A stretch of 34,550 nucleotides of DNA from Armatimonadota bacterium (GTDB taxonomy: Bacteria; Armatimonadota; Fimbriimonadia; Fimbriimonadales; Fimbriimonadaceae). The notes under the pieces were generated by a model. That model ran no database searches. It was not told the origin of the DNA and saw only the letters and a program-made list of their open reading frames with translations. The stretch's first letter is position 1; each line of letters begins with the position of its first letter. Below are positions 98-33,950 of this stretch, piece by piece. The stretch spans positions 1 through 34,550 of the forward strand of contig WGMG01000003.1 in the NCBI GenBank assembly GCA_016125185.1, written 5' to 3'. The translations under genes were made by a program, and so were the position numbers.

Positions 98-302
98 GGA
101 TTCATTGACGAATGATCCACACTCTGAATCAAGTACCCCTTTCCAGACGGGAACGACCTCGGAGAGGTCGCAGACGTTAGCCCGGGGTGCTTGCACCCCG
201 GGAATTGTCCGCACACGCAAGAAGTCCAAGGAGTCCCGAGCATCGTCCTCGACCCTCGGACTTCGGCGGACAAGCAGACGTCTTCACCAGCGCCCCCAAA
301 CG
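1..302. repeat. Intergenic repeat block 1
   Basis: No gene is visible before the aldo/keto reductase stop at 303. The block holds the right tip of the inverted-repeat element (1-16), a second GGTGGGGAGGA match near 92-102, hairpin M1 (155-169, GACCTC-GGA-GAGGTC) and hairpin M2 (181-202, 10-bp stem CCCGGGGTGC with a TT loop). A degraded remainder of the cassette follows (about 231-290). The short open frames across it read through hairpins and are not genes. Confidence 0.75.
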
Positions 303-11373: not shown

Positions 11374-11720
11374 AGGAACGACCTCGGAGAGGTCGCAGAC
11401 CTTAGCCCGGGGTGCTTGCACCCCGGGATTTATCCGAAAACAGTCAAAGTCCAAGGAGTCCCGAGAATCGGGACGACCCGGGCGAAGCCCTTCTTGGCGG
11501 GCGATCCCGATTCCGCTTTGCTCCATTTCCCTCTCTTCGCTCGGCGGGAACTTCGTGACGCCCACCCTCCAACGAGGCGAGACAAGTCTCGCTAGTGAAA
11601 GCGCGGACAAGTCCGCGCACTCCAAATCGGCCGACCTCCCTCGCCCTAGCGACGGCGAGCCCTGCTCTCTGCTTTCTGCCTTCTGCCTTCTGCACTCTGC
11701 ACTAGCGAAGCACGCCCTGA
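11374..11720. repeat. Hairpin cassette, complete copy
   Basis: Ordered modules: M1 GACCTC-GGA-GAGGTC, M2 (10-bp stem, TT loop), M3 GTCCCGA-GAA-TCGGGAC, M4 (degenerate here), M5 GCGAGAC-AA-GTCTCGC, M6 GCGCGGAC-AA-GTCCGCGC, the heptamer tract and a GCGAAGCACGCCCT tail. The same order recurs at 12801, 20563 and 24965. Confidence 0.85.
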
Positions 11721-12748: not shown

Positions 12749-12800
12749 GGAAGCTGAGCCCTGGACCTCCGCACGCAGCGACACCTATTCTCCTAGAAAC

Positions 12801-13131
12801 GACCTCGGAGAGGTCGCAGACCTTAGCCGGGCGGTCGGAGCGACCGAAGGAAGCGTAGACCCCCGGAACAGCCAGTTGGCGCCAGAGTCCGAGGAGTCCC
12901 GAGAATCGGGACGACCCGGGCGAAGCCCCTCCTTTGGCTCGCCTGCTTGGCGGGCGAGACGCCCACCCTCCCAACCGCGCGAGACAAGTCTCGCGGACCA
13001 AAGCGCGGACAAGTCTACGCACTCCAAATCGCCTGACCTCCCTTGCCCTAGCGATGCGAGCCCTTGCGAAGCACGCCCTTGCGAAGCACGCCCTCCGCAC
13101 TCTGCACGCAGCACTCAGCACTCCGCACTAG
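12801..13131. repeat. Hairpin cassette with variant M2
   Basis: M1 (12801-12815), then a variant where M2 is replaced by a GGTCGGAGCGACC-centred stretch ending in ACCCCCGG, M3 (12896-12912), M4 GGGCG-AGA-CGCCC (12952-12964), M5 (12979-12994), imperfect M6 (13003-13020), 15-mers and heptamers. The same variant M2 is found after M1 at 25865. Confidence 0.8.
13050..13094. repeat. Three tandem 15-mers
   Basis: AGCGATGCGAGCCCT, TGCGAAGCACGCCCT and again TGCGAAGCACGCCCT in direct succession. Single copies of this 15-mer border heptamer tracts elsewhere (11026, 11704 and 25273, for example), so here the tail of the cassette has been amplified. Confidence 0.85.
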
Positions 13132-19432: not shown

Positions 19433-19693
19433 AGTTTACTTGTCGGCACAGATTTCGTGCCGACGAGGTCCCGATCCCATTTGTCTCGCCGAAATGCGTC
19501 ACCTAGAGTCGAGGTTTGACGTCCGCGCGTTTGATTCTGCATGAACCAAGGCCCTATTCTGCGACCCACATTGGGGTCGTTTCGATCGGTGATCCCTTCC
19601 CAGACCTTTCTCCCATGGGCACCGATACCTCCCGAAATTCGCACTCTTCGAGCCCCAGGCGCGCTTAGGGATATTCGCCTACTTTGAATTCCT

Positions 19694-19741
19694 GACCGCG
19701 AAGTGGTCACAGAGCTTAGCCCCGGGTGCCTGCACCCGGGG
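19694..19741. repeat. Variant M1-M2 hairpin pair
   Basis: M1 variant GACCGC-GAA-GTGGTC (one G-T pair) and M2 variant CCCCGGGTGC-CT-GCACCCGGGG. Compared with the usual M2 stem CCCGGGGTGC, position 4 has changed G to C and its partner C to G, so pairing is kept. Confidence 0.8.
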
Positions 19742-19896
19742 TGGACAATCATCCAGATTTCGACCCCGAAGCGGGTCGCAGATTCTGAAACTTACCTCTA
19801 AAGTCCGAGGACTGAGCAAACTCCTTAGATCCCGATGGAGCAAAGCGATATCGGGACGGGGGATAGGAAACTAAGATCCGGCGCTCCAGAATCAGT

Positions 19897-19982
19897 GACC
19901 AATGCAGGGCTGAAGGCCCGTTCTAACCTAGCCCAGCCCAACGGGCTGGGTAGAAGATCGAGGCAAGAAAAGTCCGAGGAGT
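19897..19982. repeat. GCAGGGCTGAAGGCCC repeat, copy 1
   Basis: An 86-bp stretch including the hairpin CCAGCCC-AAC-GGGCTGG. It is repeated almost identically at 24598-24682 and, degraded, at about 16886-16935. In all three it is followed by the M3-type GTCCGAGGAGTC region. Confidence 0.8.
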
Positions 19983-20066
19983 CCCGTGTATCGGGACGAC
20001 CCGGGCGAAGCCCTTCTTGGCGGGCGAAGCTGGGATTTACCAGTGATGGTAGGTGAGCATTCAGCC

Positions 20067-20267
20067 TCCTCCCCACCGCTTCACTGCGTTCAGCGACTCC
20101 CCCCGGGGAGTAGCTTGGTTAGTAGGCTCGACAGGAGTCGGTGCCAAATCGCCATTTTGCAATAGTCCGTGTATGGTGATGTACCGACCAGACTTCGAAT
20201 TCCGAATAACTACGCTACTTCCCAGGGGGAGTCGCTGAGCCGACCTTAGGCGGAGCGGTGGGGAGGA
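20067..20267. repeat. Inverted-repeat element, copy 2 (201 bp)
   Basis: Perfect 12-bp terminal inverted repeat TCCTCCCCACCG / CGGTGGGGAGGA. It is near-identical to the reverse complement of copy 3 (28010-28214), including the centre GTGCCAAATCGCCATTTTGC. Immediately abutted by the half element 20268-20420. Confidence 0.88.
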
Positions 20268-20420
20268 GTCATTCGGTAGCCGAACGAAGTATCGACCCGA
20301 CTTCGCTTTCCGAATAGCCACGCTACTTCCTGGGGAGGGTCCACAATGGAGCCTGCCACAAAGGCAGGATTCATGTGGAGTCGTTGAGAGGCACGAAGTG
20401 TCGCGAAACGGTGGGGAGGA
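20268..20420. repeat. Half inverted-repeat element with 41-nt insertion
   Basis: Contains only the right arm, ending in CGGTGGGGAGGA (20409-20420). The arm is split by the 41-nt hairpin (20336-20376; CCTGCC-ACAAA-GGCAGG at its core). Its first 60 bp recur, inverted, at about 34190-34250, beside copy 4. Confidence 0.8.
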
Positions 20421-20562
20421 CTCATTGGCGGGCGTAACGCCCACCCTCCAAATGGCGAGACAAGTCTCGCGTGTAAAAGCGCGGACAAGTCCACGCACTC
20501 CAAATCGCCTGACCTCCCTCGCCCTTGCGCTCGCACTCAGGTCTCCCTACGTGTCCAGGAAC

Positions 20563-20822
20563 GACCTCGGAGAGGTCGCAGACCTATCCCCGGGGTGCTT
20601 GCACCCCGGGGATAGTCCCGTATCAGCAAAAGGTCCGAGGAGTCCCGAGTATCGGGACGACCCGGGCGAAGCCCTCCTTGGCGGGCGAGACGCTCACCCC
20701 CCCAACCTCGCGAGACAAGTCTCGCGGACAAGAGCGCGGACAAGTCCGCGCACTCCACATGGTCCGCCCTCCATTGCCCTGCTTTCTGTGCTCTGTGCTC
20801 TGCGCACTATGCCCTTTGCCCT
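20563..20822. repeat. Hairpin cassette with extended M2, and heptamers
   Basis: M1 (20563-20577); M2 extended to a 15-bp perfect stem beginning CTATCCCC (20584-20615); M3 GTCCCGA-GTA-TCGGGAC (20642-20658); M4 degraded; M5 (20710-20725); M6 (20734-20751); heptamers GCTTTCT, GTGCTCT, GTGCTCT, GCGCACT, ATGCCCT, TTGCCCT (20781-20822). Ends 26 nt before the stop of the - strand isomerase gene. Confidence 0.85.
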
Positions 20823-24414: not shown

Positions 24415-24725
24415 GGAGTCGCTGAGCCAAGACTTGGCGAAGCAGTGGGGAGGAAGACTAACTGAAAGCCGCAAGCCGCAAGCCTTTCGTAAAACGAGGC
24501 TATCCCTTGGCGAAGGGAAATGGAGCAAAGCGACATCGGGACGGTGGATAGAGGGCCAAGCAAAACTCGGCGCTCCATCCACCAACGCCCAAACTTTGAC
24601 CAATGCAGGGCTGAAGGCCCGTTCTAACCTAGCCCAGCCCAACGGGCTGGGTAGAAGATCGAGGCAAGAAAGTCCGAGGAGTCCCTAGTATCGGGACGAC
24701 CCCGCCATTATGGCGGTCACAAAAG

Positions 24726-24862: not shown

Positions 24863-24964
24863 GCGGCATGGGGTCGTCCCGATACTCGGGACGGTGGGGA
24901 GGATTCACTGATGGGCTCTCGGTCCTCGACCTCCGCACACGGCGACACCTATTTGTCCAGGAAC

Positions 24965-25258
24965 GACCTCGGAGAGGTCGCAGACCTTAGCCCGGGGTGC
25001 TTGCACCCCGGGAATTGTCCCGTATCAGCAAAAGGTCCGAGGAGTCCCGAGTATCGGGACGACCCGGGCGAAGCCCTTCTTGGCGGGCGTGACGCCCACC
25101 CTCCAATTCCGCGAGACAAGTCTCGCCAACGAAAGCGCGGACAAGTCCATGCACTCCACATCGACCGACCTCCCTTGCCCTGACAATGCGCGCCTGCATT
25201 CTGCTCTCTGCCTTCTGCTTTCTGCGCTCTGTGCTCTATGCACTCCGCACTCCGCACT
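24965..25258. repeat. Hairpin cassette, complete copy, with heptamers
   Basis: M1 (24965-24979), M2 (24991-25012), M3 (25044-25060), M4 GGGCGT-G-ACGCCC (25085-25097), M5 (25111-25126), imperfect M6 (25135-25152), then nine heptamers (25196-25258) and the AGCGAAGCGAGCCCT tail. It ends at the 3' end of the - strand membrane protein gene. Confidence 0.88.
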
Positions 25259-25775: not shown

Positions 25776-26104
25776 TCATCGCCCAATCTCAGCTAGGCTC
25801 GTCCAGCCCATAATCCGAAGGACCAACTCTCGCCACGCCATTCAACTTGACCCACGGACGAATTGACCTCGGAGAGGTCGCAGACCTTAGCCGGGCGGTC
25901 GGAGCGACCAAAGGAAGCGTAGACCCCCGGAACAGCCGGAATCAGTCAAAGTCCAAGGAGTCCTGAGAATCGGGACGACCTGGCGAAGCCTGCCGAAGCG
26001 AGGAACAAGCGAAGGCCGGTCGTTACGACCGCAAAAAAAGTTGTAGGTGAGGGTTAACATCGACAAGAGCAATCCAACCATCAACTCGGGGTAGGATTCA
26101 CCCC
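25776..26104. repeat. Intergenic repeat block 8 (divergent genes)
   Basis: 329 bp. M1 (25865-25879), the variant M2 stretch (GGTCGGAGCGACC) as at 12832, M3 variant (25960-25976), then CGGTCG-TTA-CGACCG (26017-26031) followed by an A-run. The last 50 bp carry the MFS promoter region. No gene seen. Confidence 0.75.
26092..26097 (+). promoter_or_regulatory. -10-like box TAGGAT, 7 nt before codon ATC 26105
   Basis: The 7-nt gap matches the other leaderless-type boxes here and points to codon 26105 as the start of the MFS gene, even though that codon reads ATC. Confidence 0.4.
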
Positions 26105-27673: not shown

Positions 27674-28009
27674 ATTGAGAAAGCCTCTGATGACCTCTTG
27701 TCACCGCCATAATGGCAGGGTCGTCCCGATACTCGTGACTCCTCGGACTTTCCGCTGATACGGGACAATTCCCGGGGTGCAAGCACCCCGGGCTAAGGTC
27801 TGCGACCTCTCCGAGGTCGTTCCCGTCTGGTAAGGGGTACTTGAAGCAGAGTGTTGGACATAGAGCAGGGCAAGGGCGTGCTACGCAAGGGCTCGCTTCG
27901 CTAGGGCGAGGGAGGTCGGCCCATTTTGAGTGCGTGGACTTGTCCGCGCTTTATGGGGCGAGACTTGTCTCGCGAGGTTTGGAGAGTGGGCGTCACGCCC
28001 GCCAATGAA

Positions 28010-33826: not shown

Positions 33827-33933
33827 CTTTCGCGTTTGTTCTTCTTGGACGAGGAAGGTTTTGGGCGGCCCGTAAAAAGCCCGTTCGCCGTCGTCTGATA
33901 CCCAGCCCTGACGGGCTGGACTAAGGGTAGCTC

Positions 33934-33950
33934 GCTCCTTTGGAGCTTTT
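33934..33950 (+). terminator. Possible rho-independent terminator after sufB
   Basis: GCTCC-TTT-GGAGC followed by TTTT, 108 nt after the sufB stop. The stem is only 5 bp, so the call is weak. Confidence 0.4.

Follow-up and report, generated by a model that had tools for sequence, protein, structure and literature searches.

Why do the two arms of a short hairpin change together? The question is raised by the window, the whole stretch of 34,550 nucleotides analysed here from an Armatimonadota genome, in which hairpins termed M1 and M2 recur with differences that preserve their pairing. The usual M2, CCCGGGGTGC-TT-GCACCCCGGG, could be read directly in five copies. At 19720-19741 its place is taken by CCCCGGGTGC-CT-GCACCCGGGG, in which the fourth pair is C-G instead of G-C; at 20584-20615 the hairpin is CTATCCCCGGGGTGC-TT-GCACCCCGGGGATAG, with 15 perfect pairs; and the M1 at 19693-19709, TGACCGC-GAA-GTGGTCA, keeps seven pairs including one G.T. 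All three cases had been named in the original prediction, and direct reading bears them out. Even the claim that the M2 flanks are otherwise unpaired holds for most copies, because no contiguous pair is added to the stem in 24 of the 26 copies where it is perfect; one copy gains a single pair, and only that at 20584-20615 gains five. The M1 holds a further compensated change, of an outer C-G to T-A, that had escaped listing. The cause offered for these changes, selection or copying by a hairpin-dependent process, needs to be taken apart, and the argument draws on the following features of the window.

181-202, 11406-11427, 20589-20610 and 24991-25012, forward strand, and 27771-27792, reverse strand: copies of the usual M2, by direct reading
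150-212, forward strand: type B M1-nTAG-M2 unit
11375-11437, forward strand: type B M1-nTAG-M2 unit
12796-12876, forward strand: diverged unit, M2 with a long loop
19693-19709, forward strand: M1 of the type A (second-subfamily) unit, seven pairs, one of them G.T
19710-19719, forward strand: linker CAGAGCTTAG, with CAGA (candidate cleavage motif) and TTAG at the foot of M2
19720-19741, forward strand: M2 of the type A unit, with the compensated swap
19761-19782, forward strand: right-end hairpin of the type A unit (M3), CGACCCCGAAGCGGGTCG, with CAGA after it
19906-19950, reverse strand: match to Acido-Lenti-1 (RF01687), 38.0 bits against a threshold of 37; the strand opposite to the match reads as an M1-TAG-M2 unit
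20562-20578, forward strand: CGACCTC-GGA-GAGGTCG, the M1 that accompanies the extended M2
20584-20615, forward strand: M2 extended to 15 bp (CTATC...GATAG); the sole aligned copy without TAG
24607-24651, reverse strand: second RF01687 match, the same kind of unit, 38.0 bits against the gathering threshold of 37
24960-25022, forward strand: type B unit, nearest sister of the copy at 20558
25860-25939, forward strand: diverged unit, M2 with a long loop
27761-27823, reverse strand: type B M1-nTAG-M2 unit
33901-33947, forward strand: weak RF01687 match

Further short repeats, such as AAGTCCGAGGAGTCCCGAGnATCGGGACGACCC, make up a mosaic in the intergenic regions of the window (19968-20027, 20629-20688, 25031-25090 and others) and occur both with and without M1-M2. 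Separately, an identical 97-bp repeat stands at the start and end of the contig (window 1-97 and 34454-34550), for which an assembly overlap, a circular contig or a repeat-bounded contig are the options.

The hairpins are parts of a larger dispersed element. A covariance model built from six window copies was run on the 4.5-Mb genome (96% complete) and found about 60 copies on both strands; several relatives have 2-33 copies each. The unit, about 100 nt long, consists of M1, a tag nTAG and M2, usually with a third hairpin, M3, that begins about 17-29 nt after M2. TAG is retained in 36 of 37 aligned copies, and its preceding base varies, with TTAG, GTAG, ATAG and CTAG all found. Moreover, within a family M1 and M3 are followed by matching bases (0 of 2000 shuffles), the pairs being CAGA/CAGA, CGGA/CGGA, TCAA/TCAA and CACA/CACA. 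M1-nTAG-M2(-M3) is a REP-like unit. The 19720 version represents a second subfamily, type A, which has M3 and CAGA; further members stand at C5:96116, at C5:96654 and next to a Y1 gene at C6:752 kb. Type B comprises the other copies in the window, whose 3' module, AAGTCCGAGGAGTCCCGAGnATCGGGAC, is a different one; no clearly matching transposase for this family was found in the own genome. Hence the swap at 19720 stands as a compensated change, but not as an alteration of the usual M2, since it belongs to the second subfamily. As a separate observation, three different M1-CAGA-nnTTAG sequences near contig ends (L054, L057 and L061; G000:C6:2009681, C11:115-140 and C13:115-140) are all followed by a common sequence, ATGCTGTCTTGTCAAGTGAGCC..., as if a multi-copy element joined exactly after TAG and replaced M2.

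Does the pairing exceed what shared descent would produce? When 37 own-genome copies are aligned with MAFFT, 92.6% of the stem cells are paired, against 80.0% in shuffled alignments, and pairing falls to 46-47% when the partner is slid by one column; both partners differ in 72 cells, where shuffles give 14.4. Such cell counts overcount events, because the C-G version of the flagged M2 pair is common to a clade of copies, as would be expected if a few ancient compensated changes had simply been inherited by many copies. We therefore turn to a self-written test modelled on R-scape (a G-test with APC and a FastTree tree, R-scape itself not being the program), in which null alignments keep the tree: the first null relocates substitutions among columns along the tree, and the second redistributes each column's substitutions over branches. 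Four pairs under the first null and three under the second reach E<0.05, every one of them a stem pair, in alignments that are small and with a FastTree topology that is rough on 50-64 columns; the flagged M2 pair has E 0.015 under one null and 0.07 under the other. Because a structure-aware search favours paired copies, the test was repeated with a sequence-only model on 41 distinct rows, found and aligned by sequence only, though at source loci mostly from the earlier structure-aware searches. There, of all column pairs, significance is reached by two alone (E <= 0.005): the flagged M2 pair and the G.T-bearing pair of M1. The original prediction had hung on whether covariation would rise above the phylogenetic background, and in these R-scape-style tests the stem pairs do so against tree-based nulls. 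Since only stem pairs stay significant under nulls that keep the tree, and since other transposase genes, and another phylum, show this architecture again on stems of unrelated sequence, inheritance of a few old changes is scarcely credible as the full explanation.

The three examples do not, however, have a single cause. The 19720 swap is a subfamily difference common to several copies, and the extension at 20584 is a five-base cluster in one copy. The 124 nt at 20552-20675 are identical to the sister copy at 24960 except for five bases, all of which fall among the ten that flank the M2 stem (p about 1e-6) and which together make five new pairs and destroy TAG. Because the extension abolishes an otherwise kept TAG, selection for the function of the element fails as its explanation, and we reject it for this copy. 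The extension is best read as one clustered template-switch (quasipalindrome) event, and template switching at the hairpin fits better than selection. Template switching is known both to create hairpins and to maintain them (PMC8794818), which raises the possibility that it accounts for the whole pattern: switching between the arms would copy changes from one to the other, and compensated pairs would arise with no selection on the hairpin. The cluster beside the 20584-20615 stem, all of it pairing and with TAG lost, is what such homogenisation predicts, yet CTATC/GATAG can be obtained from neither ancestral arm alone, so that one more step is needed even here. As a general account, homogenisation alone is unlikely; it leaves the invariant unpaired TAG unexplained, as well as the fixed distances from genes, the inverted orientation and the gene-specific versions described next.

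The own genome has seven short Y1 genes of 145-150 aa, one of them broken, and all adjoin M1-nTAG-M2 hairpins. The flanking hairpins of each gene carry their own sequence version and are mostly inverted between the two sides. The products, of about 148 aa, carry DHxH, WQ and Y...Q..HH, and by these motifs show the signature of TnpA_Y1 subclass 1.2; they are diverged (36-54% identical to the query) and of low copy number. The association was quantified with a structural scan for an M1 stem, a gap, TAG and an M2 stem, calibrated on 1.45 Mb of unrelated loci, with glpX loci (mixed phyla, best 57% identity) as background; a tolerant version, calibrated on the same background, recovers mismatch-bearing units (L009, L010) that the strict scan misses. 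The set of 60 subclass-1.2-type genes, drawn from the genus, the family, the phylum and Bacteroidota (one gene from the last), has 56 units around it, against 1.9 expected. A unit lies within 400 nt of 29 of these genes, on both sides at 16, and at the scan threshold used the remaining 31 show none. The units are mostly inverted about the gene: upstream ones point towards it (26 '+' against 7 '-'), downstream ones face the opposite way (20 '-' against 3 '+'), and distances peak at 55-65 nt before the gene start and 41-49 nt after the stop. The gene on a Persicobacter plasmid (Bacteroidota) has the same layout of flanking units. Across the set, unit similarity correlates with protein similarity (Mantel r 0.28, 0 of 5000 permutations). 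Among control genes, no unit was found at six subclass 1.1 IS200 genes or at six class 2 Y1 genes, and class 2 genes were accordingly rejected as partners. Two Bernardetia genes have M1-like hairpins alone, without the M1-TAG-M2 form; not every member of the subclass thus has the double hairpin.

The same anatomy leads to an RNA family. Acido-Lenti-1, described by Weinberg 2010 (PMC2864571), is curated as an sRNA in Rfam (RF01687), and its function was still termed little known in 2026 (PMC13298647). Its consensus, an M2 hairpin, CUA, a spacer and an M1 hairpin, is the reverse complement of M1-TAG-M2. The unit matched at 19906-19950 is close to those flanking the Y1 gene L010, and of 20 loci scanned, eight have units that the model matches, among them L007, Persicobacter and L010, the last on both sides. 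The type A and B units at 19689 and 20558 are not matched even at E 5, architecture alone being in common, and the MPSTY-type units of the finding stay below the threshold. In the phylum, 32 of 151 genomes have RF01687, and none of the 14 control and 26 unrelated genomes does; 23 of the 32 also have a subclass-1.2-like gene, against 10.2 expected (p 1.5e-7). Five genomes have RF01687 matches but no match to PF01797, one of them (G005) with up to 54 matches, many near-identical; the units can thus survive the loss of a resident gene or do without one. Acido-Lenti-1 belongs to the scattered family of paired DNA hairpins that bracket short transposase genes in many bacteria, an arrangement which suggests that the transposase recognises the hairpins.

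That the hairpins act instead as a structured RNA, regulatory or sRNA, as the Rfam entry would have it, draws on the two matches in the window and on covariation of a kind typical of RNA families. Against this stand the inverted bracketing of transposase genes and the dispersal of copies over both strands. Furthermore, there are 12 G.T against 17 A.C mispairs, so that on neither strand is there the G.T excess that would be a sign of selection as RNA, and such selection was rejected on this ground. The original description itself rates Acido-Lenti-1 as only 'probably' RNA and not cis-regulatory (PMC2864571). An RNA is thus a highly unlikely answer. An intrinsic terminator was also discarded, as a T run is absent after M2, judged by eye.

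Taken together, we hold it probable that M1-nTAG-M2(-M3) is a REP-like, non-autonomous unit that subclass 1.2 short Y1 (HUH) transposases would bind, cleave and mobilise. In this proposal, the unit would fold in single-stranded DNA, such as the lagging strand may provide; the transposase would bind the hairpins, recognise the TAG at the foot of M2, cut near the short motif repeated after M1 and M3 (CAGA, CGGA, TCAA or CACA, by family) and then move or copy the unit. Related proteins do bind folded single-stranded hairpins in a strand-specific manner (PMC8266576), and by analogy with IS200/IS605 the motifs after M1 and M3 may be the cleavage motifs and TAG a guide or tag. Covariation would then follow from pairing being kept while the stem sequence drifts, and, with each transposase keeping its own hairpin version, subfamilies such as that of 19720 would come to differ by compensated pairs. 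The cause first offered for the covariation thus survives in part: it fits the paired changes and the association with Y1 (HUH) genes, and we infer hairpin-dependent copying from the anatomy, but no single cause covers the three examples. More broadly, we lean towards the view that the whole of TnpA_Y1 subclass 1.2, to which neither REP nor IS ends have been ascribed until now, works on a distinct triple-hairpin ssDNA unit with family-specific cleavage motifs, and that Acido-Lenti-1 is the same DNA unit in several phyla. If true, a transposase subclass reported without a partner would gain one, together with a testable substrate; the Acido-Lenti-1 sRNA family would become a mobile DNA element; and annotations in which Acido-Lenti-1 regulates the genes next to it would have to be revised. 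Since one copy, at 20584, shows template-switch homogenisation cleanly, the family also offers natural material for separating this process from selection on hairpins.

The closest parallel is with the REPtrons, in which REP/REPIN sequences accompany RAYT (TnpA_REP) genes (Nunvar 2010, PMC2817692; Bertels and Rainey 2011, PMC3116915; Di Nocera 2013, PMC3733652) and for which compensatory changes in REPIN hairpins were noted earlier (PMC3116915). In both systems, hairpins scattered through intergenic regions carry a short unpaired tag at the foot, bracket a Y1 gene and come in gene-specific versions. As in REPtrons, there are many tagged copies scattered over the genome and units flank the gene, here at fixed distances. 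However, the tag is nTAG with a variable first base rather than the canonical GTAG/GTGG tetranucleotide, and we rejected membership in the canonical GTAG REP family for this reason. The REPtron unit is one GTAG palindrome, whereas here there are two or three hairpins and a repeated short motif; likewise, the REPtron transposase is of class 2 (Y..NP) rather than subclass 1.2 (Y...Q..HH), and the proteins associated with our units score far below the cut-off of the NCBIfam RAYT model. TIRYTs (PMC3733652), which have terminal inverted repeats, resemble the present system in that such repeats, some of them double-palindromic, surround Y1 genes, but they belong to class 2, for the most part to subclass 2.1, and feature the motif GGGGWSAS. 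The ends of IS200/IS605 elements (IS608, ISDra2) share with it a Y1 HUH transposase, subterminal hairpins and short motifs that here are perhaps cleavage sites; yet those elements have ends on the same strand and multiple near-identical copies, in contrast to the inverted flanking units and the single-copy, diverged genes of our system. Acido-Lenti-1 is filed as an sRNA of unknown function, whereas here it appears as a DNA element adjoining transposase genes. Finally, the proteins conform to TnpA_Y1 subclass 1.2 (Quentin 2018, PMC6006769) in their DH[IV]H, WQ and YIxNQxEHH motifs, their length of about 148 aa and their few diverged copies per genome; that subclass was published with Cyanobacteria and Bacteroidetes as main hosts and with REP given as 'no', whereas many of the members studied here are accompanied by REP-like units.
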